NCBI GenBank assembly: GCA_001247695.2
Contig: LGRX02013719.1
Coordinates: forward strand, 154,052 to 218,051
Length of the DNA stretch: 64,000 bases
Direction: 5' to 3'
From: Cymbomonas tetramitiformis
Lineage: Eukaryota; Chlorophyta; Pyramimonadophyceae; Pyramimonadales; Pyramimonadaceae
A program made the translations under genes and the position numbers. Within the stretch, counting starts at the first letter, position 1; the number at the start of each line of letters is the position of its first letter. A model generated the notes under the pieces. It was not told the origin of the DNA. It saw nothing but the letters and a program-made list of their open reading frames with translations, and did no database searches. Positions 37,741 to 64,000 of this stretch are shown here, piece after piece.

Positions 37741-37778
37741 TATATTGTGAGGTCACAACACTTCTAAGAGGGGAGATC
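37741..37778 (+). other. Polypurine tract and 3' internal end of family A element
   Basis: This matches bases 1-38 with about one difference. AAGAGGGGAGATC immediately precedes the TGTC start of the LTR. The TRIM at 49242-50111 ends its internal part with nearly the same sequence. Confidence 0.65.
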
Positions 37779-38307
37779 TGTCGGGGATATGACCGATGAC
37801 ATATGTGTCATACATGCCATACCTATCATACAATGTCATGTCATGTCATATGTCATAATGGCATACAGTCGTCGAGTATTGTCAGTACGGTCGACTATGA
37901 CATGTACAGTCATAATGTCTACCATCCACCTAAGGTGAGTGACATCTTTCATCGAGAGGCCAAGTATATGGCATCGAGATGGCGAAGCAAGACAAGTTCT
38001 TGAAGAACCGAAGGGTCCTGATAAGACGCGTCTTCGCTTCTAGCATGCACTGAACAACATGCGAGCATCAATGGCTATATCGACCAGCCGATGCGGGAAG
38101 TTCACCCAGTGCTCTCGGGTTCACAACCCGATGGTGGTAACGCATGAGATGCGTGAGAGCATTGGAGTATATGAGGAGCATTGGGCTCAAGCAAGCACTT
38201 CTGGTCAACAGACTGCTGCACTCATAACCCACCAGAATATTGCGTTTTGCTGTTACCGTTCAATAACAGCAGCGTCACACATACTGTTCGCATAGCGAAC
38301 CGTGACA
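37779..38307 (+). repeat. LTR, family A, copy 2
   Basis: Begins TGTCGGGG and ends ACCGTGACA; homologous to 39-653 but with a short ATGTC array. It is preceded by a polypurine tract and followed by 13 bp, then the TTAAG target duplication of element B. Confidence 0.65.
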
Positions 38308-38325: not shown

Positions 38326-38581
38326 TGCTGAAATATGTATAGGCAGCCCTGACCGGGAGTCCCGGTGCAGGCCCCTATGACAGACTCCTAGGACCAACAC
38401 TGGACTGCTGACTGATTTGTAGGTTCGTGCTGTGACACACGCTGTGTCACAGGTAGGCTAGACTCCGAGACCGTCCGAGACCGTTCCGGGTATATCTAGC
38501 TTAGGGTTTATTTATCTTATACAGTTTATCCACACTGAGTACGGGACTATCTGATATCTGGTGTACTAGGATATTCCGGTA
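38326..38581 (+). repeat. Left LTR of element B
   Basis: 256 bp, nearly identical to the right LTR once the TRIM is removed. It contains the palindromic stretch TGTGACACACGCTGTGTCACA. The ends TG...TA are slightly non-canonical. Confidence 0.8.
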
Positions 38582-39838: not shown

Positions 39839-40442
39839 TGTGCTAGGGTAAGTCACGGGACAGAATGACGGCGTGTCAGAATGACGAGTGACGGGTACTA
39901 TGACAGTCACCAATGACAGGCATTTATATGACCAGATGACGAGAGTGTCTGACAGAAATGACTGACAGAAATGCCTGACCCAAAAGTGAGTTTTGGTGGG
40001 AAAACCAGCAGTCAGAGAAATTGGAGGGAAAGCTGGTAGACCTCCAATATTGCCGAGTCAGCACAGTTATAATTATTCAGAGTGATATGGAGTGGCCTGG
40101 AATGATTGATGATATAACTGGGCTAGTCGGCAGATTCTATGATGTGACAGATCGAGTTCTCATGAAGTATGATGGGACCTGACAGGAGTCGACATCGAGT
40201 TATGTTCGAAAGTTCGAGATCTGAAACCATGGCATAAGGCAGCCGAGCAGGCTGAATGAATCAGTTTTGAATTTGTTACTGTGAACAGCCACACCTGGCT
40301 GTTGTAACTTCGACATTAAAGAAAGATCCGATTCACATATATATATCATGCTTACAGCAATATATATCTCTTTGTAGGACTGAACTAGGTTCCCTGCATT
40401 GTGTAAGTAGACTGAGAGGCTCTTAGAGAGCACCCCCGAACA
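39839..40442 (+). repeat. Left LTR of element C
   Basis: Begins TGTGCTAGGG and ends CCCGAACA. The first ~140 bp hold about ten TGAC/GTCA motifs (AATGACGG, AGTGACGGG, GATGACGAG and others). A TATA-like ATATATATAT run lies near 40340-40350 and again near 40360. Confidence 0.9.
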
Positions 40443-40443
40443 A

Positions 40444-40458
40444 CTGGTATCAGCGTGG
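40444..40458 (+). promoter_or_regulatory. Primer binding site of element C
   Basis: CTGGTATCAGCG follows the LTR after about two bases. TGGTATCA is the start of the well-known initiator-tRNA-Met complement used by many plant LTR elements (TGGTATCAGAGC); the match then diverges. Confidence 0.65.
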
Positions 40459-40817
40459 TTACGTTAGACGCGACCTGTTTGTGCCGACTGCAACTTCGGG
40501 TGTACAATTACCGGCACACGAATTCCGGGAGGCCTTTCCGCGAGTTCCTAGAAGAATTCTGAAGACAACGACGTAAAACGCGCTTAATTGCGTCTGCCTT
40601 TCGTCAGGGCTGCGAATATCGACGGAAAATATATCATATACTGTTCCTGAATGCATATACCACACGTACAAGTGTGATGTAATTTGTCCTTGCAGGTGCC
40701 TTTCCGCGGGAATTGTCGTTTGTTCGACCGTCGAAATCAGCGTCAATCGGCAGAATTTTATCGCCCGTGCCGTGTGAGCTCACTGCCGTTAACGTGCGTT
40801 CGCATCACAACGCAGTC

Positions 40818-42278
40818 ATGGACTCTCAGCATGGAATTCTGCAGCACACAGCTGTAGCGACTTCCACGGGGCAATCGCCGTTCCTTTCAGCGGCGAATTA
40901 CTCCGAATCAATCGACCCCAGGAGTGTTTCGCAACCGGGCTGGCCCTTTCCGCAATCGGCTGCGCACACGCAACCTGGGCTCTCGTATATCGGCTCAACG
41001 CAACAGCTTGATGGGAATTCAGCGTACGGATTTTTGCAGGATCTGCCGCAGCGTAATTTTATGACGGCGCCGCCACAATTTCCGCAGAATTCGTACAATT
41101 CTTCTGACCCCCGCAGTGGGTACGACGAGCGTAATTCCAACGGCAGTCCAATTATGTCAACGCCGGCCGGTCAATTTTGGCTGCAGCAGCAGCCCCGTGA
41201 AGATTTAGCTCACCAGCGGAACTTTCAACAGCAAATTTTCCTGCAGCAACAGCAGTATGGTCAACAGCACCAGCTGTCGCCACGTGCCTTGTGGCCACAT
41301 GACACTCCGTTGCCGGCAGCCGCGTACGGCGTACCAATGGGGTACCCTTCACCGGGTATGCTGTCTCCCGCGGTACCGAATTTGCCAGTGCCCGAGCTTT
41401 CTCCGTACCCAACAGCGTCGGTAGCGACGAATTGGGCCCTGTCCTGTCCTGTTCCAGCGGCAGCAGAAGCAGCTGTGCAGCAACCACCTGCTGTGACAAC
41501 TTTTGTGAACGTTACCAGCGCAGGAATTAACCCCTCGGCAGGGGGGGGGGAAGTTGTGCAAGTACCAGTGAGCCCAGTACCACCGGGTACATTGCCCAGT
41601 GAGCCAGTAGGGGATATTCCGGCACTGGTGACCCCTGTTCATTCCCCTGTTTTCACTCCGGTTGCCACTAAGTTGCAGGAGTTGGAAAGGATGAACATGG
41701 CAGCTTTGGCAGCACAGTCAGTTTCTGCGACCACTTACCCGAAAGTGGGGAATCGGGCCTCCACATCGACCCCTTGCGCCGGAGGCTCTGGCGAAATTTC
41801 AACGTCACCGGTGACTGGAGATGCAGATGCTACCACTTGCCCAACAGTGGGGGATAGGGTCCCCACGTCGACCCTGTGCGCCGGAGGCTCTGGCGAAATT
41901 TCAACGTCACCGGTGTCTGGAGATACAGCCGTCATCGCTTGCCCAATAGTGGGGGATAGGGTCCCCACATCAACCCTGTGCGCCGGAGGCTCTGGCGAAA
42001 ATTTGATGTCGTCAGCATCTGGAGGGGCCGCTGCGGTTGCTTGCCCAACGGTGGGGGATAGGGTCCCCACGTCGACCCTGTGCGCCGGAGGCGCTGGCGA
42101 AATTTTGGCATCGCCAGCATCTGGAGGCGCAGTTGCGGTTGCTTGCCCAACGGTGGGGGATAGGGTCCCCACGTCGACCCTGTGCGCCGGAGGCTCTGGC
42201 AAAACGATCCGCGAGCACGTTGACTGGCTCGACGACGACGCTGGGAAGACTGGCAGTAGCCAGCGAGGGGCGTGCTGA
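40818..42278 (+). CDS. Element C Gag N-terminal part, Gln/Pro/Ser-rich
   Basis: The frame is open from 40713, and the first convincing Met is at 40818 (MDSQHGILQH). The sequence is disordered and rich in Q, P, S and aromatic residues (QQQYGQQHQL). Residues from ~310 on are built of a 34-residue repeat, CPTVGDRVPTSTLCAGGSGE. The frame ends at 42278 in a different frame from the rest of Gag, so a shift near 42210 is needed to join 42037-43458. Confidence 0.55.
   Translation: MDSQHGILQHTAVATSTGQSPFLSAANYSESIDPRSVSQPGWPFPQSAAHTQPGLSYIGSTQQLDGNSAYGFLQDLPQRNFMTAPPQFPQNSYNSSDPRSGYDERNSNGSPIMSTPAGQFWLQQQPREDLAHQRNFQQQIFLQQQQYGQQHQLSPRALWPHDTPLPAAAYGVPMGYPSPGMLSPAVPNLPVPELSPYPTASVATNWALSCPVPAAAEAAVQQPPAVTTFVNVTSAGINPSAGGGEVVQVPVSPVPPGTLPSEPVGDIPALVTPVHSPVFTPVATKLQELERMNMAALAAQSVSATTYPKVGNRASTSTPCAGGSGEISTSPVTGDADATTCPTVGDRVPTSTLCAGGSGEISTSPVSGDTAVIACPIVGDRVPTSTLCAGGSGENLMSSASGGAAAVACPTVGDRVPTSTLCAGGAGEILASPASGGAVAVACPTVGDRVPTSTLCAGGSGKTIREHVDWLDDDAGKTGSSQRGAC
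41735..42205 (+). repeat. 102-bp tandem repeat, about 4.6 copies
   Basis: Units share CCCAACRGTGGGGGATAGGG followed by TCCCCACGTCGACCCTGTGC. Each encodes 34 residues. The opposite strand is also open for 155 codons through the array, which follows from the repeat itself. The palindromic core GGGGATAGGGTCCCC recurs in the units. Confidence 0.85.
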
Positions 42279-43656
42279 ACGGACCAAGAAGTTATCAGAG
42301 CGCACAGAGCTGCTGATTCAGCGCAGTAGAACCATCGTCAGTTCTGCTGCGACTGGTCAATCATCTTCCAGCACGACTGCCACGGCATCCTCATCTTCAA
42401 CGCCGGAACAGTCAGCAAACGCTGCTTTAGCGGCCAAGGCAGGTGTGGCCCCAGTCGCCCAAGCAAGCGCAGCCCCAGCGATTCGCGACCAGAATCCCTC
42501 ACCTGTCCTGAGCGCTGGAGCGGGCTCTGGCAAGAACCCGACTCAGCCAGCGTCAGCTTTACAACACGCGGACTTTGTATTGCCAAATTCCAGTGTCTCC
42601 GCAGAGGATTTCCCAGCACTACCCCTTCCAGCGACACCGCGCCCAGCGATGGAAACAAGGGGGGATTTGGCCAGCCGGGAGTTGGTGGCTGCCCTGGAGA
42701 GAGTCGGACCGCAGCTGCGGGAAGGAGCGCGGTCTGTCAGAGCTCTGAGGGAATCAGCCAGTCTCCAGACATCAGAGCTCCCAGTTCAGCCAGCTCGGCA
42801 GGCTCAGCCAGCGGGACAGCCCTCAGCTCCTCAAGGGGACAGGCAGAGGTCGCCAGACAGGAGGAAGGATCCCCGGTCGCCTGAGCAAATGGCCCTGGAC
42901 CGTGCGTACAGTAAGTGCGGGAAGGACCAGAAGGTCAGGGTGGTCAGATGGATAGAGGGAGCCGGCACTGCGTGGAGTGACCACAGTGGAGACAGCGCGG
43001 AGTCACAGGCTTCAGCCCCCGTGAGGTTGCAGATAGTTGCACTGTCAGCTGGAGAAAAGAAGACCCTCACGCAGTGGTTCTACAGTGAGCCACGCACTCG
43101 GAGCGGGAAGATCCTTTGGCATCCGGCCTCCCCGCAGGAGTTGGCTGTGCTACAAGCAGGAGTGACAGAGAGGGAATACAGGCGCGCCCTCAAACACGGA
43201 ACCCTGTCACACCATGACGGGTTACCAAGGAAACTCTTCGCAGGAGTGAACTTTGGCAGAGCACGTGTTAAGGAAAGTGGAGCGACCCCCACCCGCAACG
43301 CCTTCACAGCACTCTCGGCGGCCCCAGCAGAGGCCCAAAGGCAGCCATCCGTGCAGCAGTGGGAGGAAATACCCAGATGCGGATTGGCATACCCACCAGG
43401 CTTTTCGCCAATTCCTCGCTTCCCTCCCTGCCAGCAGCGACAGCAGCGAGTCCAGTGACTCCAGTGACTCCACAGTTTCCCCAGAATGAGGCAGCCGCGG
43501 CAGCAGCAGGCGTAGAGGCAGAGGTAGCAGCAGCGGCAGCAGCAGGCGGCAACGGAGGCGGAAGAAGCAGCTGGCTAAGAAGAGGGCAGTCAAGGCAGCA
43601 AAAGGGAAGGCTGTAGATGAGGAGCCTGCCTCTCGAGTATCATCCCATGGCCCGTC
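42206..43656 (+). CDS. Element C Gag C-terminal part
   Basis: The coding frame is the one open over 42037-43458. It runs through an Ala/Ser-rich linker and a conserved block of ~150 residues (KVRVVRWIEGAGTAW, KKTLTQWFYSEPRTRSGKIL) with LPRKLFAGVNFGRARV. Another frame then carries a strongly basic tail near 43500-43610 (RRQRRRKKQLAKKRAVK), suitable for RNA binding, ending at TAG near 43655. No CCHC knuckle is visible. At least one frameshift is present. Confidence 0.5.
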
Positions 43657-46284
43657 TTGGTAGTATTGGCCAAACCACAGCGTAAGCACTTCGACGAGAT
43701 CACAGCTCCGAGAGAAAGACCCTCAGCATCACCAGCAGTGACTCTCAAGGGTGCAGCAGCAATAATCAGGGACCAGGCAGGTGTGGTGGAACCGGGAATG
43801 TTTCTGCGTGCCTTACGGGCAGAACACAGGCGCAGTGAGTACCTATCAGCCCTGAAGCAGGAATTACTGGCCACACAGCACCACCGCACCGAGCATTTTC
43901 GGCTGGTGAGTAACATCATCTGGAGAGTGGCGGAAGGACGCTATCAGGTGGTGTTAGCTCCCGACTCCCCTCTGAGAGAGCTGGTCTTGAGGGAAGCTCA
44001 CGAAGCACCTGCAGCAGGTCACACAGGGAGGGACAAAACCTTGGACAGAGTCAGACGGCGATTCTGGTGGCCGCGAATGGACCTGGACGTAGCTGAATGG
44101 GTGAAGACTTGCGTAACCTGTCAGCAAACCCAGCCGCGCCAAGGATACCCAGCAGGCTTGTTGCAGCCCCACACTGTGCCTAGCCGGTTGTGGGAAGTGG
44201 TGAGCATAGACTTTGTCACTGGTCTCCCCACGACAGAGAGAGGTGTGAATGCCTTCGCCACATTTACATGTAAACTGAGTAAGATGGTGCACGTGGTCCC
44301 AATGGCGTATAACGATAGTTCAGCGGAGGTGGTGACCAGAATGTTCATGGATGCAGTGTGGCGACTGCACGGGGCCCCGATGAAGATTGTGTGCGACCGG
44401 GATCCGCGCTTTCGAGATGCTCTGACACAGGAGTTCATGCGATTGATGGGCGTAAAGGTAGCCAGCACCACCCCTTATCACCCGCAGAGTGATGGCCAGG
44501 CTGAGCGTAGTAACCACACCGTGGAGCGCATGCTGCGTTGTTATGTAGCAGAGAACCAGGAGGACTGGGACCTGTGGGTGGCTCCAGTGGAGTACGCCAT
44601 CAATGACTCCAAGTCGGTAGTAACAGGGTTCTCGCCATTCGAGCTGGTGTACGGACATGCGCCAGCAACCCAGCTGGACCTCTTCATGGACGCAGCACTG
44701 GAGGGAGGCGCTAAGAGGAGAAAGGGAGGTCGCACGGCAGCGGACACGCAAGGTACAGCATATCAGTTGGCCAAGCAGTTCGCGCAGCAGCTGCAGGCGG
44801 CACGAGAGGGCTTGCAAATGGCTCAGCAGCGCATGATGGAGCAGTTTGATGCACGGCACCGGCTCCAGCAATATAAGGTGAATGATCAGGTGTGGGTGGA
44901 TGGACAACACTTGACGTTGCCTGGTGACAGGGGCCTGAAACCCAAGTTGCGCAAATTGCGGCACGGACCTCTGCGAGTAGTAGAATGTTTGTACAGCGAC
45001 CGGCAGCAGGAGTTACCAGTGCAGGACCGAGGAGCCCCGTCAGCATACAGACTGGAGTTGCCCGTGCACTGGAAGGTACATGACACATTCACCGCAGACA
45101 GGCTCAGCCCAGTACAGTCAGGCGCAAATCACTTTGTCAGCAGACGAGAAGAGATGGCACCGCCACCAGTAATGGTAGAAGGGCACAAGGAGCGCGAGGT
45201 GGAGCGCATCATCCGCACACGCTTCAGGAAGTTAGGCGGGAAAACTGGCGGGTCAGTGCAGGAGTGGTTGACCAAGTGGAAAGGATTGCCACACAGTCAC
45301 AGCCAGTGGCGGACCCGAGAGGACCTGGAGGGCAAGGGAGGCAGGCTGGAACCTTTGAGAGCCTTTGAGGCCGATGAGGAGAAGCAGAGGAAGGCCCCAG
45401 AAAAGAGGCGTAGGGAGACGCACGGCCAGCAGCAGAAGCAGAGGGCTCAGCTCATGGCAATGAGAGCCCCCACCCCGAAGGTTTACAGTAAGGGTGCCAG
45501 TCAGGTCTATCAGCCGCATCTCACGACGGTACAACATCCTGTGAGGATCCTCGTCCTCTTCTGTGGGACTGGGTCTGTAGAACAGCAGTTCCAACGACAG
45601 TTCGACGGCTGCAAAGTGGTGACAGTGGATATTCTCCCTAAGTGGCAAGCAACATGCACCGAGGACATTCTCCACTGGAACTACAGGCTGTACCCCCGAC
45701 ACTATTTCGACGTGATCTGGGCGAGCCCACCATGTAAGGAGTACAGCAAGGCCAAGACTAGGGGAGTACCGGACCTGGAGCTGGCTGATCGGCGAATGAA
45801 GCGTACCCGGCAGATCATCGAGTACTACGATCCAGCATACTACTTCATTGAGAACCCGGCTGGAGATGCTCTGCGAGGGCTGCACACGCGATCTGTGATG
45901 AAGGGTTTGCCCGATCCTCACCCCGTCTCTTACTGTAGGTATGGGACACCCTACATGAAACCTACACATATCTGGACGAACGCCGTGCTACCCGTACCCC
46001 TGCTGCAGTGTACCCAAGCAACACCATGTCCCGCGAGAGCCGTGCTGGGAAAGCACGAGAACACATCGCAGGAAGGAGTTTCAGCGTCCAGAACACGAGT
46101 CATGGGGTCAGCGCAAGCAGTATACGCGATCCCCCGCACCTTGTTGCATCATCTGTTCTGTGGGCTGAAGTTGGGTAAGAAGCGTATGAGCGAGGAAAGC
46201 GCAGCAGCAGTCATGGACCTCATCGCCACTCTGACAGCGCAGACGGACGAGATCCCGATGCAGGCACAAGATACTGAGGTCTAA
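43657..46284 (+). CDS. Integrase - chromodomain - DNA cytosine-C5 methyltransferase fusion
   Basis: 875 codons, intact. Integrase zinc-binding HHCC: LREAHEAPAAGH and CVTCQ (~112-155). Catalytic D-D-E: VSIDFVTGL (~184), VCDRDPRF (~246), GQAERSN (~282). A basic GPL/F-type tail follows. A chromodomain at ~510-560 (EVERIIRTRF, EWLTKWKGLPHSHSQWRTRE) matches the KWKG...S.W...E.L pattern. From ~627 a C5-MTase: LFCGTGS (motif I, ~634), VTVDILPKW (motif II), ASPPCKEYS (motif IV with catalytic Cys, ~690), FIENPAG (motif VI, ~731), YCRYGTPYMKPTHIWTN, and a final IPRTLLHHLF. A large target-recognition domain is not seen. The chromodomain would direct integration to modified histones; methylation of flanks or of its own DNA is inference. 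Confidence 0.85.
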   Translation: MVVLAKPQRKHFDEITAPRERPSASPAVTLKGAAAIIRDQAGVVEPGMFLRALRAEHRRSEYLSALKQELLATQHHRTEHFRLVSNIIWRVAEGRYQVVLAPDSPLRELVLREAHEAPAAGHTGRDKTLDRVRRRFWWPRMDLDVAEWVKTCVTCQQTQPRQGYPAGLLQPHTVPSRLWEVVSIDFVTGLPTTERGVNAFATFTCKLSKMVHVVPMAYNDSSAEVVTRMFMDAVWRLHGAPMKIVCDRDPRFRDALTQEFMRLMGVKVASTTPYHPQSDGQAERSNHTVERMLRCYVAENQEDWDLWVAPVEYAINDSKSVVTGFSPFELVYGHAPATQLDLFMDAALEGGAKRRKGGRTAADTQGTAYQLAKQFAQQLQAAREGLQMAQQRMMEQFDARHRLQQYKVNDQVWVDGQHLTLPGDRGLKPKLRKLRHGPLRVVECLYSDRQQELPVQDRGAPSAYRLELPVHWKVHDTFTADRLSPVQSGANHFVSRREEMAPPPVMVEGHKEREVERIIRTRFRKLGGKTGGSVQEWLTKWKGLPHSHSQWRTREDLEGKGGRLEPLRAFEADEEKQRKAPEKRRRETHGQQQKQRAQLMAMRAPTPKVYSKGASQVYQPHLTTVQHPVRILVLFCGTGSVEQQFQRQFDGCKVVTVDILPKWQATCTEDILHWNYRLYPRHYFDVIWASPPCKEYSKAKTRGVPDLELADRRMKRTRQIIEYYDPAYYFIENPAGDALRGLHTRSVMKGLPDPHPVSYCRYGTPYMKPTHIWTNAVLPVPLLQCTQATPCPARAVLGKHENTSQEGVSASRTRVMGSAQAVYAIPRTLLHHLFCGLKLGKKRMSEESAAAVMDLIATLTAQTDEIPMQAQDTEV

Positions 46285-46407
46285 AACCCCCAGGGCGCAA
46301 AGCAGCGCAAGACCCGCAGAGCGAGAGGAGTACCAGGGCGACAGAACCGTTTAAGCGTCGGCAGCGTAATTCGGGGACGGAGCCTCGGGAAACCTCCAGC
46401 GCGGAAG

Positions 46408-46529
46408 GGGACTCAGACCCAAGGACTGAGGGGCACGGGACCCAAGAACCCGAGGCTTAGAAGCCAGGGGGACTCAGACCCAAGGACTGAGGGGCACGGG
46501 ACCCGAGAACCCGAGGCTTAGAAGCCAGC
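46408..46529 (+). repeat. 61-bp tandem duplication in element C 3' UTR
   Basis: Two copies of a unit with GGGACTCAGACCCAAGGACT and GAGGGGCACGGGACCC differ at about one base. They lie between the methyltransferase stop and the polypurine tract. Confidence 0.85.
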
Positions 46530-46610
46530 ATCACTGTGCATGTTTGTTGATCCCCAGACAATGTAAATACAGGCGAACACTAGACGCTAGCGAGGACGTA
46601 AGCGCGCGCC

Positions 46611-46627
46611 TAAAAGGGGGGGAGAGT
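46611..46627 (+). other. Polypurine tract of element C
   Basis: TAAAAGGGGGGGAGAGT directly precedes the TGTGCTAGGG start of the right LTR. Confidence 0.75.
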
Positions 46628-47231
46628 TGTGCTAGGGTAAGTCACGAGACAGAATGACGGCGTGTCAGAATGACGAGTGACGGGTACTATGACAGTCACC
46701 AATGACAGGCATTTATATGACCAGATGACGAGAGTGTCTGACAGAAATGACTGACAGAAATGCCTGACCCAAAAGTGAGTTTTGGTGGGAAAACCAGCAG
46801 TCAGAGAAATTGGAGGGAAAGCTGGTAGACCTCCAATATTGCCGAGTCAGCACAGTTATAATTATTCAGAGTGATATGGAGTGGCCTGGAATGATTGATG
46901 ATATAACTGGGCTAGTCGGCAGATTCTATGATGTGACAGATCGAGTTCTCATGAAGTATGATGGGACCTGACAGGAGTCGACATCGAGTTATGTTCGAAA
47001 GTTCGAGATCTGAAACCATGGCATAAGGCAGCCGAGCAGGCTGAATGAATCAGTTTTGAATTTGTTACTGTGAACAGCCACACCTGGCTGTTGTAACTTC
47101 GACATTAAAGAAAGATCCGATTCACATATATATATCATGCTTACAGCAATATATATCTCTTTGTAGGACTGAACTAGGTTCCCTGCATTGTGTAAGTAGA
47201 CTGAGAGGCTCTTAGAGAGCACCCCCGAACA
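46628..47231 (+). repeat. Right LTR of element C
   Basis: 604 bp, differing from the left LTR at about one position by eye (CACGAGAC against CACGGGAC). Followed by the GCACG duplication. Confidence 0.9.
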
Positions 47232-49007: not shown

Positions 49008-49241
49008 TGCTGAAATCTGTATAGGCAGCCCTGACCGGGAGTCCCGGTGCAGGCCCCTATGACAGACTCCTAGGACCAACACTGGACTGCTGACTGATTT
49101 GTAGGTTCGTGCTGTGACACACGCTGTGTCACAGGTAGGCTAGACTCCGAGACCGTCCGAGACCGTTCCGGGTATATCTAGCTTAGGGTTTATTTATCTT
49201 ATACAGTTTATCCACACTGAGTACGGGACTATCTGATATCT

Positions 49242-49532
49242 TGTTACGGATCGAAAGATGACAGACGCCCGCAGTCGCGATGTTGGTACGTCGTCGTCGA
49301 TGTCACACGCATAGTCAATCATCGATATGTAACAGTCCGATCTGTACGAGTACCACTGAAATGCGCGAAAGGATCATCATCCTCCGCGTAGCTCAGTTGG
49401 TTAGAGCGTCGCACTAGATAAGCGAACGTCACGGGTTCAAATCCCGTCGTGGAGCCTTTTCGCCCCATGACGATATATGATTTGACCCGGCTCGTACAGT
49501 GAAAATCTCCGCACCGATTTCAAACCCTAACA
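49242..49532 (+). repeat. TRIM left LTR
   Basis: 291 bp with 8-bp inverted ends TGTTACGG / CCCTAACA (imperfect) and a tRNA-like unit at 49382-49455. Confidence 0.9.
49382..49455 (+). tRNA. tRNA-like gene in TRIM left LTR
   Basis: A full cloverleaf can be drawn. The 7-bp acceptor stem is CTCCGCG/CGTGGAG with one G-T pair; the D arm is GCTC-AGTTGGTTA-GAGC. The anticodon arm TCGCA-CTAGATA-AGCGA has an A-A mismatch next to the loop. The variable loop is 5 nt, and the T arm is ACGGG-TTCAAAT-CCCGT. The A box (TAGCTCAGTTGG) and B box (GGGTTCAAATCCC) are good. TTTT at 49457-49460 is a Pol III terminator. The nominal anticodon is AGA, but the short variable loop does not fit tRNA-Ser, so decoding function is doubtful. 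Confidence 0.75.
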
Positions 49533-49533
49533 T

Positions 49534-49545
49534 TGGTATCGAAGC
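49534..49545 (+). promoter_or_regulatory. TRIM primer binding site
   Basis: TGGTATCGAAGC starts one base after the left LTR. It resembles the initiator tRNA-Met complement (TGGTATCAGAGC) at 10 of 12 positions. Confidence 0.7.
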
Positions 49546-49806
49546 GACGGTTCGGAAACCGCCTCAGATGTAACGGCATAAGGCACACGATATGACCTAC
49601 GCTAAGATCGCGTATGCTCGGGCACGGTGATGTGACCTGCGCTACGATCGCGTATGCATGGGCACGATGTGACCCGCGCTGATGACGTGGACACATTCCA
49701 CACAACCCCCGGTACGAGCGGACAAGGTTGGCGGCCACGTCATCACATCTGAGGTCGGACCTCTGAAAAGTAACTCGACACGAATGTCGTGAGGTCACCA
49801 CACTTT

Positions 49807-49820
49807 AAAGAGGGGAGATA
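49807..49820 (+). other. TRIM polypurine tract
   Basis: AAAGAGGGGAGATA directly precedes the right LTR. Confidence 0.75.
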
Positions 49821-50111
49821 TGTTACGGATCGAAAGATGACAGACGCCCGCAGTCGCGATGTTGGTACGTCGTCGTCGATGTCACACGCATAGTCGATCA
49901 TCGATATGTAACAGTCCGATCTGTACGAGTACCACTGAAATACGCGAAAGGATCATCATCCTCCGCGTAGCTCAGTTGGTTAGAGCGTCGCACTAGAGAA
50001 GCGAACGTCACGGGTTCAAATCCCGTCGTGGAGCCTTTTCGCCCCATGACGATATATGATTTGACCCGGCTCGTACAGTGAAAATCCCCGCACCGATTTC
50101 AAACCCTAACA
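49821..50111 (+). repeat. TRIM right LTR
   Basis: 291 bp; four substitutions against the left LTR, one of them in the anticodon loop of the tRNA-like unit. Confidence 0.9.
49961..50034 (+). tRNA. tRNA-like gene in TRIM right LTR
   Basis: Same cloverleaf as the left copy, with G instead of T just 3' of the nominal anticodon AGA. Stems, A box, B box and the downstream TTTT (50036-50039) are unchanged between copies. Confidence 0.75.
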
Positions 50112-50143
50112 TATCTGGTGTACTAGGATATTCCGGTATTAAG

Positions 50144-52085: not shown

Positions 52086-52345
52086 ATATTGTTGATCAGA
52101 CAATATAATTATATCGGGCAACAACCTCCCGGCGAGATCCATACGGGACTCGAACCTGCGCGCTCAAGGTGCAAGTCCAACACATAGCGCCCTACGCCGT
52201 AGCGCTACGGCGATCTGATGACATAGCGCTACGGCGTAGGGCGCTATGTGTTGGACTTGCACCTTGAGCGCGCAGGTTCGAGTCCCGTCTGGATCTCGTC
52301 GGGAGGTTGTTGCCCGATATAATTATATTGTCTCATCAACAATAT
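52086..52345. repeat. Large inverted repeat with tRNA-like sequence in each arm
   Basis: Arms 52086-52207 and 52224-52345 (122 nt each) are reverse complements with about three mismatches around a 16-nt loop. The outer ~30 bp are AT-rich (ATAATTATAT). The inner part of each arm reads outward as a tRNA-like 3' half: GTGTTGGACTTGCACC followed by a perfect B box (GGTTCGAGTCC) and a CTGGATC end. TAGCGCTACGGCG could be an A box. A complete acceptor stem is not convincing. Confidence 0.75.
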
Positions 52346-52490
52346 TTGGGAAAAATCTTTAGATTGTCCCCCTCTTTGAAAAAGTCCGTTTTATGACGTC
52401 ACAAATTTTGCGTATTGGGGGAAAATCTTTAGATTGTCCCCCTCTTTGAAAAAGTCTGTTTTATGACGTGACGCTTTTGTGTATAAATTT
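52346..52490 (+). repeat. 70-bp tandem duplication with TGACGTCA-type sites
   Basis: Two copies of a unit containing AAAATCTTTAGATTGTCCCC and GTTTTATGACGT. The first has the full palindrome TGACGTCA, the second TGACGTGA. GTATAAATTT follows at 52481-52490 as a possible TATA box. Confidence 0.7.
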
Positions 52491-52539
52491 TTAGAGGTTT
52501 GATTTCGTAGAAACCAGCTATTACAGAACGAACACTGCT

Positions 52540-52579
52540 TTGCGTGACGCACTTTTGCGTGACGCTTTTTGCGTCACGT
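52540..52579 (+). promoter_or_regulatory. GCGTGACGC repeats with hairpin
   Basis: TGCGTGACGC occurs twice, then CGTGACGC-TTTTT-GCGTCACG forms an 8-bp stem. It sits between the tandem TGACGT sites and the minisatellite. A regulatory role is only suggested by the density of TGACG motifs. Confidence 0.4.
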
Positions 52580-52606
52580 ATTGTACCGGGAGGTACGAGC
52601 AGCGGG

Positions 52607-53395
52607 GTTGCATGCTACAGAGATCTGGTTGCATGCTGCCGACGAGTGGTTGCATGATACAGATGCCTGGTTGCATGCTGCGTATGCCTGGTTGCATGCC
52701 ACAGATGCCTGGTTGCATGCTACAGATGCCCGGTTGCATGCCACGGAGGCCAGGTTGCATGCTACAGATGTCAGGTTGCATGCTACAGAGGCCCGGTTGC
52801 ATGTCACGGAGGCCAGGTTGCATGCTACAGATGTCAGGTTGCATGCTACAGAGGCCAGGTTGCATGCCACGGAGGCCAGGTTGCATGCTACAGATGTCGG
52901 GTTGCATGCTACAGAGGCCCGGTTGCACACGGAGGCCAGGTTGCATGCGACAGATGTCAGGTTGCATGCTACAGAGGCCAGGTTGCATGCGACAGAGGCC
53001 AGGTTGCATGCGACAGATGTCGGGTTGCATGCCACAGAGGCCAGGTTGCATGCGACAGAGGCCAGGTTGCATGCTACAAAGGCCAGGTTGCATGCTACAG
53101 ATGTCTGGTTGCATGCCACAGAGGCCAGGTTGCATGCGACAGAGGCCAGGTTGCATGCGACAGAGGCCAGGTTGCATGCGACAGACGTCGGGTTGCATGC
53201 CACAGGGGCCAGGTTGCATGTGACAGAGGCCAGGTTGCATGCTACAAAGGCCAGGTTGCATGCTACAGATGTCTGGTTGCATGCCACAGAGGCCAGGTTG
53301 CATGCAACAGAGCCCAGGTTGCATGCTACATATGCCAGGTTGCATGCTGGTGACGGGTGGTTGCATGCTGCAAGGGCCTTGTTGCATGCCGGTCA
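52607..53395. repeat. 21-bp GCATGC minisatellite (about 37 units)
   Basis: The unit is GGTTGCATGCNACAGANGYCA with period 21; one unit is shortened to 18. GGTTGCATGC is nearly invariant, the other half varies. It is open in several frames on both strands only because of the period. The complementary motif GCATGCAACC is the one found in the coding arrays of element D. Confidence 0.9.
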
Positions 53396-54863
53396 CAGCT
53401 GTATGAAGAAATAATTGATGGCAAGGCAGATTTCAGGAGAAGATCTGCAATGACAATAATTATATTGAGGATCTGGTGGATTCCAGAAAGATCTGCAATG
53501 GCAATATCGTGATCTGCCTGATGATTGGTGGAGGAGTACCAGAATCAGGCATATATGTGCACATGATTGGTCGATGGCAGATGTCAATACAGGAATCCTG
53601 CTAGTGTTGATCAAGAGAAATTAAGGACAAGTTGTACATGTTAGTGTTAGGTTGTAAGCCAAGACTGATATAAGGGTATAGATGTTATAGGTTTGCGACC
53701 ATACATTATATCGAAAAGTGATAGTATTGCTAGGCTGTATAGCCAGTATATGTCATGAAATAAAACAGTAGAATATAAGGCTAGAAGCCTATGTGATACA
53801 CCAAAAACAATAGAAAACATAAAAAGAAAAAGAAAGAAGATAAAAGAAAAGAAAGGAAAAATAAAGAGATAAAGATGTATAAGTTATCAGGAGTGTGTGC
53901 CTGGTACAAATTGGTTCTCAGATGATGGGAACGTTCTATGGACCTGTGGGATCTGCGTTTTGCAAGATGTTGGGGATGGCGGCTTTTGTGTTTGCGTTTT
54001 GAGCGGCTTCAGCTTACGTTTGACGGCTCAAAATACGCGCGGTGCTTGCGTTATAAACACGAAAAATTTTCGCTATGGGACCTTCTTTGTTAAAGATTTG
54101 GTTAAGGATCTTCTGTGCAGACTTGAGATGCGACTGCAAGATGACTTGGGCGACTTTTCGTTTTTGAGTTTTGAGCTGTCTCTGCTTACGTTCGACGGCT
54201 CAAATTGCGCGCGTTACGTGCACTAAAAACACGGAAAAGTTTCGCTACGGGATCTTCTTTGTGTGGGATTTGGTTGGGATCTGCGTTGGATTGCTTTTTC
54301 TTGAGACTCTGGGCGAGATTTGTGACTTGATCTTAAGAATGTTCGCAGCTGGTCCACTCCGACGGCTGTAAAGCTGGCAGGATATGCGCGTAGACGTCTT
54401 TAGTGGACCCGCGTTTTCGCTTTTGGCTGGATGTGGATGTGATGATGCGGATGCTCAGATTACTGATCTTGGATGCCGGCAGAGGCTTAAGTATGGGGGG
54501 GGAAAGTGAGCTCCTCTCAGCAACATAACTAAGCAAAGCCGCCGGAGGCTATTGTCAAAAAGTACAAATAAAAAGTATCTTTTTAGTTTGTTAACAATCT
54601 GAGCAAGTTTGGGGCCAGATCTTGTATCCTCACCAGCTGCTAAAAATAGCCTATCAGCCTTAAGTATGGTGGAAGTACCTCCCAACTTCTAGGGAAGTTC
54701 CTTATACCTTCTGGCCGAGTTCTCTACAGTTTTTGGCAGTATTTGGGCTCCACTGGACTGGTATTTCTGGAATTAAATTCTGGAAACGCCATACGACCAT
54801 ATTTGACGCTGTCATAGTTGTCATATTGTCATAACTGTCATACGGTTGACCGACAGTTGACTT
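53396..54863. other. Spacer upstream of element D
   Basis: No confident gene. It contains a purine-rich A/G tract at about 53815-53880 and a diverged ~170-bp direct duplication (about 54000-54110 and 54170-54285). The duplication shares GCTTACGTT.GACGGCTCAAA and AA.TTTCGCTA.GG. The 5' LTR of element D should lie here if present, but I could not define it. Confidence 0.4.
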
Positions 54864-57800
54864 TTGATGCTTTCGTCTGGACCTTCGCCCCCTTCCACAA
54901 CCGCCATGGACCCTTCCACCACCGCCTTCCCTCTGACACCCTTAGATCCCTCTCCACCAACCGCTTCCACCGCACCGGGACCTTCGGGCCCTTCCACCAC
55001 CACCTTCCCCTTGACCCCCTCCGACCCCTCTCCACCGATCGCTTCCATCGCAGGGGTCAGTACTGGGCAGGTTGTCGACGTTTATCAACCTGTTCCGGAC
55101 GTGCCCTTCGGCGTGCCCTTCAGCGCGCCCGTCAGCATGCAACCGCATGCAACCAGCATGCAACCGCATGCAACCAGCATGCAACCGCATGCAACCGGCA
55201 TGCAACCCAGCATGTTTCAGGGCCAGTTCTTGCACGGCCCATCCCCAGCCCCTCCTTTTGTGTTTCAACAACAAGAGGGTGGTTGGGGCAGCGTGCAGCA
55301 GCATGCAACATGGCAGGCTGAGCATGCAACCCGCCAGCCCCAGCATGCAACCTGGCAGGCCGAGCATGCAACCCGCCAGCAACCAGGCCTCTGGCCCTAC
55401 GGCATGCCACACCACCATGCCCCAGGCGTATTGACACACGCCCCGTACACTCCCGCGCCGATGTCGACCACGTACGGGGACCCGTGGACGTTACCCGCCT
55501 ATTTTCCACCGCCTCCACCTCCAACATATGGAGTTGACCCTGCGTCAGAGGCACGTGCTAGAGAATGGTGGGCAGCACGAGAGCGCATGGCGGCTGCAGA
55601 GCGGGCGGTGGCGACTGATATGAGAGTGGTCCCCCAACGATTGTATCCGACACCGCTGATGGAACCGACTCCCCACACCGATACTTCTCCTGACGAGGGT
55701 GTGGTAAACCACCAGCCGCATCATCGTCGTCGTGCTTCGGGTCCGGAGACCCTTGGGAGAACCTTGCCCATACACACGGAGCCCCAAGACGTGGTGACCG
55801 AGGACCTCTCCCAAGCTCACGCGTCTCAACCTGGGAGCACGACATCCGGCTCCGGCTATGAGTCTGCGGCGGGCACTCAGCATAGCCGCAGACGACGAGA
55901 ACGGCGTCTCAAGTTGGAGAAGCATCGGAGGAAGGAGATGACGGACCAGGAGGTGTTGCAGCGGGTGGTGCGCGCTGAGACGGCTCGGTTCCTTGCGGAA
56001 TCCGAGGCGGGAAGCTTGCGCGATCGGATGGCTCAGCTGGAGGCTGCCACAGCGGAGAGCGAGGTGGCCGAGGAACGGCGTCTGGCAAGAAGACGCCGGG
56101 CAAGCTTGGACACCCCTGTGGTGTGCGGGGCTGGTGGGGGCCAGCCGCAGCATGCAGCGGGAGCGGCGGAGCATGCAACCGGCTCGGCGGAGCATGCAAC
56201 ACAGCATGCAACACGACCGGCTGAGCATGCAACACGCCCGGCTTCGCATGCAACCAGCTCAACTTCGCATGCAACACAGCATGCAACCCGCCCGGCTGAG
56301 CATGCAACACGCCTCGCCCAACATGCAACTCGACCGGCTGAGCATGCAACGGGTCTGTCTCCGCATGCAACACGCCTAGCTCCGCATGCAACCAGTGGGT
56401 TCCAGCATGCAACCGGCGCCTCCCAGCATGCAACCAGCGGGGGACAGCTTGCCTTGGGCTGGAAGGATGGGAAGTCGCACGCCGCTGATGAAGAATCACA
56501 GAGCCGGAGTAGCGACTATAAGGACACGGAGGACGACCCTGGTGACGACCCTGGAGATGACCCTGGTGGTGACCCGACTGTGGGGGCGGGACCGTCGACG
56601 TCAACTACACGACTGTTAGTGGTCACTCCCCAAGGGGATTCCTTGTGGGTGCCCCCGGGTGAATTGGTCACTACAGCGACGTTACCTGAGATCACCTCCT
56701 CGCGCCATGGTCTGTCGGCAGCCTTGAAGGTCTGTGACAATCTTGGGCTGAGTCCTACTCGATACATTCTGAGCGGGGCCGGCGGTACCTCTTTCCCCGA
56801 GATACGTCCGTTGCACACCACCGAGACCTCCACCTACGCCCTCTTGGTGGACCGCTCGGTGGCAGAGGAGTCTATTCGAGGCACGAGGCGTCCCAGAATT
56901 CCGTCACAATGGTACCAATGCCCGAGACGACCGGTGGTGGATGCCTTCACGGAGTCGGAGGCGGAGACCTACGAGCTGGATGGGCTACAAGCCTGGGTGG
57001 AGGTATGTGCTGCTCCATGGTACCTGGCTGCATCGTTTGGGCCGCCTCCTACGATGCAGCCAGACCCCTCCACCTTCCCCGCTCCTTCACATCGACTCTC
57101 AGCCGATGCCGCGACCTTCACCCCGACGGTGGCTCATACGGCAGTGGCGGGACCACCGGCCGGGGTTGCACGAGCCCCGGAAGACCCGACGGCCATGTTC
57201 ACCCCCGACGACCGCTCTTACCAGACCGCGATCAAGAACGAGAGCTCGCTCTTGAGGGGCATCTACAAGTTGGTGGAGGACCTCCCGGAGTTCCCCGGCG
57301 ATCACTACACGAAGGGCCGGGCCATGGATGACCTTGAGGAGTTCTCTGTGGCGGTGAATGCGCTTCTGGAGCACATGACGGTGATTGCGGCGCTCACTAC
57401 TCCCAGCTTTCGGCGTGAGGCGCAAGGACGCAACCAGCTCAGCGTCTCCACCTTGCTATGGATGGTCAAGACCGCCAAGTTGGCCAAGGCTCAGAAGCTG
57501 TACGTCGAGGAGATGGCGCCGGGAGGCAGCGAAGGAGAGGCGTGGAAGGTGAGGTACGCAACGGTGCCACGGTTCATGGGCGACCTTGCCTTGTCGGTGG
57601 ACATCACCACGGACGCCTTGAAGCGGCTGAAGTCGGAGCTACTCTCAACGAGGCAGCGATCGGAGGAGAAGACCGGTGCCTTCTACACCCGCATCACCAC
57701 CCGAACCGCGACTGTCAACTTTGTGGCGGACGTAGTACGGGGTTGCGGCAAGGTTACCAAGCTGGAACTTCTCGAGCTCTTTTGGAGTGGACTACGTCAC

Positions 57801-59140: not shown

Positions 59141-61477
59141 ATGACCCTCAAGAAGAAGTCCCCGGCGGAGGCACACAAGATGGCTGAGCGCAGTCGTCGC
59201 CATGCTACACGACGTCCCGCGACTACACCCTTCAGCCGTCGCCAACGGAAGTACGGGTTGGACAAGCTTATACTTGCCCGCTTGCGTGGTCGCATGGGCG
59301 GCACATTGGGCTTGGCCTGGGCAGAGTTGAGTCCACGCGAGCAGCGTCGGGCTGTGAAGCAAGAATACGGGCCGAAGACGAATGTACCTCAAGAAGGCCG
59401 ACCTTGGGAGACGACTGGGCTCCGTCGCCTTCGACGGCGTCAAGCGTCAGCGGCGATATCAATACAGCGAGCCTACCGCTTGTGGCGACGTCGGCGGGCA
59501 CAACGAGCGCAGGACACCCCCTTTGACTCCCATGCGCTCAAAACGGCCTCCACATGGACCACGGCAGTCCAGCGGGTCAGGCAGTGCGGTAAGGCGATTG
59601 TGCATGCTGTGTTCGGACGTGTTCGACGAGCACACCCACCTCCCAATCCTGCTCCTCTCAAACCATACGAGACAGTCCTTGCGGCAACTCTGGGATCGAG
59701 CCCCTCGGACCTAACCCACAGCACGGACGAGTCCGAGATGGAGATTCATTGCAGCCAATACCGGTTGCAGCAACACCGTGAGCAGTCCTCGGGGGAGGAT
59801 ACGCCTACCCGTCGTTCGAAGCCTTCGAGGAGTGGGAGGAAGCGTACGACCTTGGACCAGCGGATGAAAGCCTGGAGGAAGAATGAAGCTGCACGTCTTG
59901 CGGCTTGGGAGGCTGCGCGTCTTGCTGCTTGGGAGGGTCTGAGCACGACCCAGCAACCGGCGGGCGAACCTGAGCACCTCGAGGAGGAGCTGAGTATGAC
60001 CCAGCAACTGGCAGGCGGATCGGGCAGCATACCGCCAGCATGCAACCAACGTGCTGCATCTTGCCCTAGTCCGCCCGTGGAGGAGCTGAACATGACCCAG
60101 CAGCTGGCGGGAGGACCTAACAGCCCACGCCGGCATGCAACTCGACCGGCTGAGCATGCAACGGGCCTGTCCCCCCATGCAACACGCCCCGACCAGCATG
60201 CAACACGCCTGGTTCAGCATGCAACCAGTGGATTCCAGCATGCAACCAGCGCCTCACAGCATGCAACCAGTCCGGCTGAGCATGCGACCGGCTTGCCTGA
60301 GCATGCAGCATGCCTTGCTGAGCATGCAACCAGCCGGCCTGCGCATGCAACCAGCCGGCCTGCGCATGCAACCGGTGGGTCTCAGCATGCAACCTGCACA
60401 GCTGAGCATGCAACACGCCCGGCTGAGCATGCAACCCGCCTCGCTGAGCATGCTGCCAGCTCGCCTGAGCATGCAGCATGTCCTGCTGAGCATGCAACCA
60501 GCCGGCCTGCGCATGCAACCAGCCGGCCTACGCATGCAACCAGTGGGTCTCAGCATGCAACCTGCCCAGCTGAGCATGCAACACGCCCAGCTGAGCATGC
60601 AGCATGCCTCGCTGAGCATGCAACCCGCCCGGCTGAGCATGCAACACGCCTCGCCCGGCATGCAACACGTCCGGCTCAGCATGCAACCAGTGGGTCTCAG
60701 CATGCAACCTGCCTCGTTGAGCATGCAACCAGCCTGGCTAAGCATGCAACCTGCCCGGCTGAGCATGCGACACGCCCGGCTGAGCATGCAACCAGACAGC
60801 CTGGGCATGCAACCGGCTCCGCCAAGCATGCAACATGCCCCGCTGAGCAGGCGACGCGCCTGGCCCAGCATGCAACGCGCTCGGCCCAGCATGCAACCGG
60901 TGGGTTCCAGCCGCTGGAAAGCGGATCAGACAGTGACTCTACACATGTCAGCGCTACCGACAGTGGCATTACTCACGTCAGCGCCACCGACAGCGACACG
61001 ACGCACATTAGCGCCACCGACAGCGACACAACGCATGTCAGTGCCACCAGCAGCGACACCACTCACGTCAGCGACACCAACAGTGACACCACTCACGTCA
61101 GCCCCACTGATAGTGATACCACTCACGTCAGTGTCTCGACCAACGCCACCACGTACGTCAATGCCACTGAACATGGTAGTGGCGAAGAACACGAGTGCAA
61201 CGCCTTGGTGGACGAGGCTGCAACCGCTTTGAGCTCTCACCCGATTGAAGATGCTCTTAAATGTAAGCGTGTTCAACTGGATGGGGGGGTGCGCTGGAAA
61301 GCAAACACTCGAACAGGGACACTCCTGGCACACACACTGTCAGCGGTGCGGGACGAGGAAGGACCCTTACTCCTGGTGTTCTATGCCTACCTTCGTGGAC
61401 ACCGAGTAAAGGTGCTGGTGGACTCAGGCGCCTCGGACAACTTCATCTCGGCGGATTGTGCCCGTACCGACCTGTGA
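59141..61477 (+). CDS. Element D Pol N-terminus: HAT array, DTTHVSAT repeats and protease active site
   Basis: 778 codons. A basic N-terminal half includes IQRAYRLWRRRRAQRAQ, reminiscent of an IQ motif (IQxxxRxxxxR). A long HAT array follows (~330-590), then about eight 10-residue units of the type THVSATDSDT (~595-670). The retropepsin start VKVLVDSGASDNFIS carries the D-S-G-A active site near residue 763. The frame ends at 61477 and the second half of the protease is in another frame. The large repetitive N-terminal extension to a gypsy protease is unusual. Confidence 0.7.
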   Translation: MTLKKKSPAEAHKMAERSRRHATRRPATTPFSRRQRKYGLDKLILARLRGRMGGTLGLAWAELSPREQRRAVKQEYGPKTNVPQEGRPWETTGLRRLRRRQASAAISIQRAYRLWRRRRAQRAQDTPFDSHALKTASTWTTAVQRVRQCGKAIVHAVFGRVRRAHPPPNPAPLKPYETVLAATLGSSPSDLTHSTDESEMEIHCSQYRLQQHREQSSGEDTPTRRSKPSRSGRKRTTLDQRMKAWRKNEAARLAAWEAARLAAWEGLSTTQQPAGEPEHLEEELSMTQQLAGGSGSIPPACNQRAASCPSPPVEELNMTQQLAGGPNSPRRHATRPAEHATGLSPHATRPDQHATRLVQHATSGFQHATSASQHATSPAEHATGLPEHAACLAEHATSRPAHATSRPAHATGGSQHATCTAEHATRPAEHATRLAEHAASSPEHAACPAEHATSRPAHATSRPTHATSGSQHATCPAEHATRPAEHAACLAEHATRPAEHATRLARHATRPAQHATSGSQHATCLVEHATSLAKHATCPAEHATRPAEHATRQPGHATGSAKHATCPAEQATRLAQHATRSAQHATGGFQPLESGSDSDSTHVSATDSGITHVSATDSDTTHISATDSDTTHVSATSSDTTHVSDTNSDTTHVSPTDSDTTHVSVSTNATTYVNATEHGSGEEHECNALVDEAATALSSHPIEDALKCKRVQLDGGVRWKANTRTGTLLAHTLSAVRDEEGPLLLVFYAYLRGHRVKVLVDSGASDNFISADCARTDL
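60130..60905 (+). repeat. GCATGCAAC 21-bp array before the protease (about 37 units)
   Basis: Units such as GAGCATGCAACACGCCCGGCT, GCGCATGCAACCAGCCGGCCT and CAGCATGCAACCAGTGGGTCT. GCATGCA is nearly invariant; flanking codons vary. Higher-order blocks (CAGCATGC..GTGGGTCT) recur, showing block duplication. Confidence 0.9.
60935..61160 (+). repeat. 30-bp tandem repeat, about 7-8 units
   Basis: Units like ACTCACGTCAGCGCCACCGA with CAGCGACACC encode THVSATDSDT. CACGTCA is retained in most units. Confidence 0.8.
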
Positions 61478-62740: not shown

Positions 62741-64000
62741 AGGCATCCAAGGCGCAGATGCTGAAGGAGTCTCTACGGTTCTTGGGCCACACTCTATCCG
62801 CCGAAGGATGCCAACCTCAGCATGACAAGGTGTCCTCCATCAAGGACTGGCCGAAGCTGGAGACGGTAACCCACGTCAGACAGTTCCTTGGACTAGCGGG
62901 GTACTACCGCCGGTTTGTGCACCGGTTCTCGGAGATTGCCCAACCCTTGACCTCGCTCACCAAGACCGACGTACCGTGGCAGTGGGGAGAACTCCAACAA
63001 TGGGCCTTCGACGAGCTGAAGACCGCTCTCTCCTCGGCCCCAGTATTGGCATTGCCCGACATGAAGGCAGCCGCGGATGGATCAGCGCCGTTTTTGGTAC
63101 AAACGGACGCAAGCGGAGTTGCTTTGGGAGGCGTACTCATGCAAGATACGGGGGACGGTATGAGGGTGATCGCCTACGATAGTCGGCAGTTTTCTGCAGC
63201 GGAGCAGAGTTTCCACACCGGCGAAAGGGAGCTCTGTGCGTTGCACCATTGCACCACCGTCACCTGGAGGCACTACCTGTTCTCCTCCGACTTCCGGCTG
63301 CAAGGTGACCATCGCCCCCTGGAATGGCTAATGTCCCCGGGACGAGAGCTTAGCCGACGACAGGCACGGTGGTACATGGACCTGGTGGAAGTCGGTGTCC
63401 CACGAATGGAGTACGTCAAGGGAGCCCTCCTTCTGGTCCCTGATGCGCTATCCCGCCGACCTGACTACGTGACCAAGGACCCGCGGGATGGGCTCAAGGA
63501 GGCCGGTGTTGTAGACAAGGAGCCGGACCTCCCCAAGGACCCGCTCTCCGTGCTGGATGTCGAGGAGATCTTTGAAGACCACCCGCCACCCCCTGTACCA
63601 GGATGGGTGGCCACCATGGAGTCATGGATGGATGGCGGGGAGACGCTTCAGGTGGCGGAGCGAGCCCTGGTGAGCCTGCTCCAGGCTGGCAGCGCGCCCT
63701 GGCATGCAGCATGCCTTACTGAGCATGCAACCAGCTCAGCTTTGCATGCAACCTGCCCAGCTGAGCATGCAACACGCTTGCCTGAGCATGCAACCAGCTC
63801 GCCTGAGCATGCAGCATGCCTTGCTGAGCATGCAACCAGCTCAGCCTCGCATGCAACCAGCTCAGCTTCGCATGCAACCTGCCCAGCTGAGCATGCAACA
63901 CGCTTGCCTGAGCATGCAACCAGCTCAGCTCTGCATGCAACCTGCCCAGCTGAGCATGCAACACGCTTGCCTGGGCATGCAACCAGCTCGCCTGAGCATG
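62741..64000 (+). CDS. Element D RT thumb, RNase H and HAT-array tail (open at window end)
   Basis: An open frame without stop from about 62741 to the edge. It starts LKASKAQMLKESLRFLGHTL, then VRQFLGLAGYYRRFV. RNase H: D in LVQTDASGVAL, E in TGERELCALH, D in LQGDHRPLEW, D in VPDALSRRP. A linker with acidic and proline stretches (DVEEIFEDHPPPPVPGW) follows. From 63700 the chain enters another HAT array instead of the integrase zinc-binding domain that normally follows; integrase may lie beyond the window. Confidence 0.8.
63703..64000 (+). repeat. GCATGCAAC 21-bp array after RNase H
   Basis: At least 14 units such as GAGCATGCAACACGCTTGCCT and TCGCATGCAACCAGCTCAGCT, in the HAT frame, continuing past the window edge. 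Confidence 0.9.

Follow-up and report, generated by a model that had tools for sequence, protein, structure and literature searches.

The element at 49242-50111 of the window, the whole 64,000-nt stretch of Cymbomonas tetramitiformis DNA analysed here, is a genuine, abundant and recently active miniature LTR retrotransposon with a tRNA-like sequence in both of its LTRs. It belongs to a Helenus family whose host lineage does not appear in the host table of Kojima 2024 (PMC10886601), the paper that gave this name to TRIMs with tRNA-derived LTR sequence. The finding extends tRNA-bearing TRIMs to green algae, and the family is young and large enough to test the purpose of the tRNA-like part. What is new, at moderate strength, is that the tRNA-like block is less variable than its LTR flanks and that its positions outside the A and B boxes are as constant as the boxes, unlike the reports on Cassandra. 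It seems fairly probable that we are dealing with a Helenus-type TRIM in which the block serves as an internal Pol III promoter, transcription reads through to the 3′ LTR, a host tRNA is the primer and the element is moved in trans.

Anatomy of the element and of its tRNA-like block

The element is 870 bp long and lies on the forward strand. Its two LTRs of 291 nt each (49242-49532 and 49821-50111) have TG...CA ends and differ from each other by 4 substitutions. They are flanked by the 5-bp target site duplication (TSD) TATCT at 49237-49241 and 50112-50116, and a sister repeat at 38540-38580 carries TATCT uninterrupted, thus representing the empty site. The internal region of 288 nt (49533-49820), of which a 331-nt variant occurs in other copies, has the primer binding site (PBS) at one end (49533-49551, TTGGTATCGAAGCGACGGT; TTGGTATCGAAG from 49533, TTGGTATCGAAGCGACGG at the start of the region). 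The other end is the PPT (AAGAGGGGAGAT from 49808; AAGAGGGGAGATA at the end of the region), which closes a 31-nt segment, 49789-49819, common to another LTR family in the window. The 291-bp LTRs, PBS, PPT and TATCT duplication had all been described in an earlier, sequence-only reading, and the whole of this anatomy is borne out. The longest stop-to-stop frame wholly within the element has 94 codons, and the element is non-autonomous and apparently non-coding.

At Rfam gathering cut-offs, as with ARAGORN, the 64-kb window contains two tRNA matches, one in each LTR. The 73-nt block of the 5′ LTR (49382-49454, forward strand) is called by ARAGORN as tRNA-Ser AGA with a short variable loop and reaches 54.6 bits with the Rfam tRNA model RF00005 (E value 5.5e-9). 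The block of the 3′ LTR (49961-50033, forward strand) reaches 58.4 bits (4.8e-10) and belongs to a set of 90 identical blocks in the 126 LTRs of the family that were compared. The predicted fold has 7 acceptor, 4 D, 4 anticodon and 5 T stem pairs, with one mismatch in the anticodon stem, in agreement with the cloverleaf described for each LTR by the sequence-only reading. Its fold energy, taken as fold alone, is modest (z of -2.2 and -2.0 for the two blocks). The block is not a chance feature, since it is present in 48 of 50 loci that were chosen by the LTR end and PBS alone. By tRNA numbering, we take 49389-49400 and 49433-49443 to be the A box and the B box of an internal Pol III promoter, both on the forward strand. 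In the anticodon loop of the 5′ LTR, position 49419 is a private T, while 123 of the 126 LTRs have G. The label "Ser" stands for the anticodon AGA only, because the variable loop of the block is short and tRNA-Ser has a long one.

Two other identities for the block were considered and rejected. The search at gathering cut-offs finds tRNA alone in the window, which excludes a 5S rRNA sequence of the Cassandra type. As to a phage or viral origin, five phage records match just 6-9% of the query, all inside the tRNA part, and there was no exact match of a 33-base block pattern in viral_contigs.

With the Rfam tRNA model, whose cut-off is 29, five LTR blocks taken from four loci reach 50-58 bits, both window blocks lie above the cut-off as well, and naive tRNA gene counts in the C. 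tetramitiformis genome are accordingly at risk. Applied to the whole genome, the same model gave 30,467 first-look candidates, of which 63 were scored. Other tRNA genes were encountered on the way. In contigs C4825 and C21113 (loci L038 and L046), tRNA-Leu(AAG) and tRNA-Lys(CTT) genes alternate in tandem arrays that repeat every 233 nt. On contig C1, about 820 nt of locus L035 contain a compact cluster of eight tRNA genes (Leu, Ile, Asn, Ser, Ser, Arg, Thr, Asn), which is perhaps organellar or viral.

The family in the genome and its published relatives

The search covered the assembly of 851.7 Mb in 25,745 contigs. A 16-mer spanning the LTR end and the PBS, and thus lying outside the block, has 1872 genome matches at ≤1 mismatch, as compared to 1 for the reversed control. 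With the whole LTR as query there were 1033 first-look candidates, and the 40 that were scored are all 97-100% identical. Fifty of the 100 16-mer matches listed, all with 0 mismatches, were read as loci (the first 30 and 20 more); the places outside these 50 include 20 between contigs C2366 and C3649 and array members at C4521, C4522 and C6873. ARAGORN found the tRNA-like block in 48 of the 50 loci (29 of 30 in the first set, 19 of 20 in the second). Since L080 and L081 overlap, as do L093 and L094, this corresponds to 48 distinct places, 46 of them with the block. It is lacking in L084 and L113, and neither of these two loci matches the LTR of the window element at all. The sequence-only reading had proposed a miniature LTR retrotransposon with a Pol III-type tRNA-like sequence in each LTR, and named a lack of the block in other copies as what would speak against it; its proposal holds across the family.

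The LTRs of the first 30 loci are 84.5 to 97.9% identical to that of the window element. A perfect 5-bp TSD surrounds 30 of the 41 full-length copies with both ends readable. Adjacent LTRs diverge by a median of 0.7% and a maximum of 3.5% (53 pairs), and this low median indicates that the family moved recently. Some copies form tandem arrays with common LTRs; contig C6873 has 8 such junctions, spaced 581-633 nt apart.

A tRNA gene in the LTR was not a form known to the sequence-only reading. It is a published one: Kojima 2024 described Helenus elements, with a total length of 311-1263 bp and TSDs of 4-5 bp, from fungi, animals and one lycophyte, and the hosts in Table 1 include no green alga (PMC10886601). 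The family reported here agrees with that description in being a TRIM under 1.3 kb whose internal region is bounded by PBS and PPT, in having A and B boxes within a tRNA-derived part of each LTR, and in occurring also as solo LTRs and tandem arrays. The 5-bp TSD is that of the fungal and plant families. The combination of an AGA anticodon with a short variable loop may amount to the conflict between anticodon and tRNA type that is common, but not universal, in Helenus. The 1872 LTR-end/PBS matches, although counted differently from the published copy numbers, lie within the range of the larger Helenus families. Two differences stand out. The host is a chlorophyte alga of the Pyramimonadophyceae, whereas the sole plant in Table 1 is Selaginella, and the block is no more variable outside the boxes than in them, whereas PMC10886601 stresses conservation around the boxes.

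Cassandra TRIMs are a second point of comparison. According to PMC7215508 and PMC10853983, they resemble the present family in having small-RNA gene sequence with a Pol III promoter in the LTR and in forming tandem arrays of LTR and internal domain, but their LTR sequence is derived from 5S rRNA and not from tRNA. TRIMs are also known from the green algae Chlamydomonas and Volvox (Gao 2016, PMC4717578); the terms "tRNA", "Pol III" and "polymerase III" are absent from the main text of that paper. Searches of the main journal literature listed no Helenus-like element from a green alga.

Constancy of the block across copies

The first variation set comprised 55 LTRs, from 28 pattern-sampled loci and the window. 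Deviations per site per LTR amount to 0.0309 upstream of the block, 0.0062 within it and 0.0259 downstream. Variation in the block is 3-5 times lower than in the LTR flanks, and the 73-nt stretch with the lowest variation coincides with the block to within one base. A larger set contained 126 LTRs of 71 loci, some of these loci being chosen by whole-LTR likeness. Here, derived states common to at least two loci number 6 in the 73 block columns vs. 74 in the 211 flank columns, and private derived states 47 vs. 97. One LTR, L025_2, alone accounts for 19 private block changes. Without it and L095_1 (124 LTRs), the shared states are 5 in the block and 67 in the flanks and the private ones 27 and 84, respectively, with an odds ratio (OR) of 0.23 and p of 0.0025, the private states being similar per column. 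The OR is 0.17 if the outlier L025_2 is kept. For pattern-sampled LTRs only, shared states are 5 vs. 58 and private states 19 vs. 75 (OR 0.34, p 0.042). All these p values are optimistic because the copies have common descent.

The constancy is not confined to the promoter boxes. In the 124 LTRs the deviation rate is 0.0053 in the boxes, 0.0053 in the block outside them and 0.0192 in the flanks, and columns with shared derived states make up 4 of 50 outside the boxes vs. 62 of 211 in the flanks (p 0.001). The 85 pattern-sampled LTRs give 0.0056 outside the boxes, 0.0072 within them and 0.0240 in the flanks, with 4 of 50 vs. 55 of 211 columns (p 0.005). The A and B boxes alone would not account for this constancy of the remaining block positions, which are no more variable than the boxes. 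Among the 55 pattern-sampled LTRs there are no deviations in the anticodon stem, the variable loop and the T3′ and acceptor 3′ strands. Cassandra differs in that variation has been reported between its promoter boxes (PMC10853983).

Such a pattern would suit an explanation in which the cloverleaf acts as an RNA and not only as a promoter. Within an element RNA from either Pol II or Pol III, the cloverleaf would be a substrate of RNase P or RNase Z, or would act as a tRNA mimic in export, protection or packaging, and this role would keep the sequence of the whole block. We consider this rather unlikely. The family is young, so that few events are seen, and one contiguous 50-column stretch of the flanks is nearly as constant as the block, with only 5 columns showing shared changes. 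The mismatch in the anticodon stem also speaks against it, and the stems do not clearly point to selection for pairing. Of 17 different pair states that arose by change, 9 still pair, as compared to 17.5% for random single changes (p 0.001); however, 12 of the 17 changes are transitions and include all 9 that keep pairing, and against a transition-aware null (9 of 12 vs. 52.5% expected, p 0.10) the claim of selection failed. It is therefore the sequence that is invariant, with no demonstrated selection for pairing.

As for compensatory change, suggested earlier as a check of the cloverleaf, there are no double compensatory changes among the LTRs except in L025_2. This LTR (positions 2084-2349 of locus L025) is a chimera: its upstream half is the usual one, its tRNA-like block is of another kind (ARAGORN "SeC tca") and its downstream half has diverged. 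It may be the trace of a second family that carries this other tRNA-like module. A wider version of the RNA explanation, also rather unlikely in our estimate, would have the whole cloverleaf selected for end processing, export, protection or packaging, the elements being tRNA mimics of which several families swap tRNA-like modules by recombination.

Another explanation sees in the block no more than the passive remains of a SINE or tRNA pseudogene in an ordinary Pol II-driven TRIM; its low variation would reflect youth, gene conversion or sampling. The sequence TATATG at 49474-49479, noticed by eye about 20 nt 3′ of the 5′ LTR block, would suit a Pol II promoter element, and the tandem arrays with common LTRs imply that homogenisation of LTRs can occur. 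If outliers are left out, the two LTRs of one element likewise differ less in the block (0.0057 vs. 0.0118 in the flanks, p 0.0008). This would not be expected if dead copies simply decayed, and it also weighs against the favoured Pol III reading. With all pairs included, the difference shrinks to 0.0107 vs. 0.0131 (p 0.24); a claim that the block decays neutrally in single copies was lost once the outlier was removed. The relic explanation nevertheless appears unlikely, as the block stays constant while the flanks of the same LTRs vary, and its low variation persists when the LTRs are selected through a pattern that lies elsewhere in the element. As to decay of the block at the neutral rate in all copies, named beforehand as what would refute the proposal, the block is less varied than the flanks family-wide. 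In general, these data place the block under constraint, with no clean contrast to neutral decay. We claim this at moderate strength only, because the within-element contrast depends on outliers and the p values are optimistic.

That the LTRs house a functional host gene supplying a decoding tRNA is highly improbable: an Rfam score of 58 bits and an AGA anticodon kept in nearly all copies would fit it, but this serine anticodon goes together with a short variable loop and an anticodon-stem mismatch, and disagreement of isotype is common in Helenus families (PMC10886601). The block is probably neither a working serine tRNA gene nor the primer.

Transcription, priming and mobilisation

On the favoured reading, that of a Pol III-transcribed Helenus-type TRIM, which would place it among the Pol III-driven TRIMs (TRIMp3), the A and B boxes of the block would form an internal Pol III promoter, and the element RNA would start inside the 5′ LTR. 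It would then read past a weak T-run on to the 3′ LTR and end at the block there, which would make the tRNA-like block the repeated R region. The T-run stands as TTTT at 49457-49460 3′ of the 5′ LTR block, a possible Pol III terminator, and at 50036-50039 3′ of the other block, both on the forward strand. The sequence-only reading had counted this TTTT among the features of the element; it is present in the window copy but is not fixed in the family, in which TTTT follows the block in 76 of the 126 LTRs and TTT in the remaining 50, and a fixed terminator was thus rejected. There is no T-run of 4 or more elsewhere on the sense strand of the window element. Given the variable T-run and the lack of another T4, a Pol III RNA could start at the 5′ block and sometimes read through. 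What weighs against such transcription, which we infer from the promoter-like boxes, is that in LTRs with TTTT a transcript started at the block should often stop at this T-run, before the internal region; the 50 LTRs without TTTT count against it as well.

Reverse transcription would be primed at the PBS by a host tRNA. Priming by the tRNA-like part itself, one of the roles suggested for it earlier, was rejected: the longest complement of the block to the first 40 internal bases is 6 nt, a length reached by 767 of 2000 shuffles. In this failure to pair with the PBS the block also conforms to Helenus. A search with one pattern for a host tRNA ending in the PBS complement gave 12 matches, none of them tRNA-like by eye, as compared to 4 for the reversed control.

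The proteins would be supplied in trans by an LTR retrotransposon whose PBS start and PPT resemble those of the TRIM. Most likely the window element was moved by another LTR retrotransposon, and two sequences of the window, both on the forward strand, perhaps belong to that mover. One is a 3′ end with its LTR at 37747-38307 (LTR from 37779), and the second copy is an internal 3′ end with its LTR at 7-653 (LTR 39-653). The 31 nt before the 3′ LTR junction of the TRIM, 49789-49819, are 90% identical to 37747-37777 and 87% identical to 7-37, and these two segments directly precede the LTRs of the candidate family (37779-38307 and 39-653). A parallel is the Helenus element LTR-1_PTrit, whose internal ends are common with a Copia element; here it is the PPT end that is common with another LTR family.

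The two loci without the block bear on the same question. Locus L113 has an LTR of the candidate partner family (80% identity to 294-654), followed by the PBS and leader of the TRIM, 167 nt at 98% identity to 49525-49691. In a genome search with L113, the 41 other matches either fall short of the LTR end or reach it and go no more than 8 bases further, and none of them extends into the TRIM leader. L113 may for this reason be a recombinant, which weakens it as proof of a shared leader. Twenty of the 41 matches continue beyond the LTR for 5 to 8 bases, a length that would be in keeping with a shared PBS start. Locus L084 has 45 nt of the PBS and leader at 93% identity, next to another LTR.

A Ty3/Gypsy element at 39839-47231 was rejected as a helper, its PBS starting ACTGGTATCAGCG and differing after TGGTATC. 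It has 604-nt LTRs that are 99.8% identical, 5-bp GCACG flanks on both sides and an integrase with a chromodomain. The best protein match of its integrase ORF (43657-46284) is a C. tetramitiformis protein, 91% identical over its length. Two relatives, P0008 and P0011, are listed with a DNA methylase domain (PF00145); DNMT-bearing retrotransposons have been described from charophytes and dinoflagellates (PMC5890265).

Several other features of the window were recorded. A reverse transcriptase is encoded at 13217-14737 on the reverse strand, with R2 and LINE-1 proteins among its nearest solved structures, and a 708-codon ORF with an IPT/TIG domain lies at 33919-36045 on the forward strand. An inverted repeat at 52086-52345 has 122-nt arms that are 98% complementary and 16 nt apart. 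Repeats of 21 nt around AGCATGCAACC occur in many copies on both strands at 52479-53447, 56148-56452, 60069-60977 and 63682-64000.
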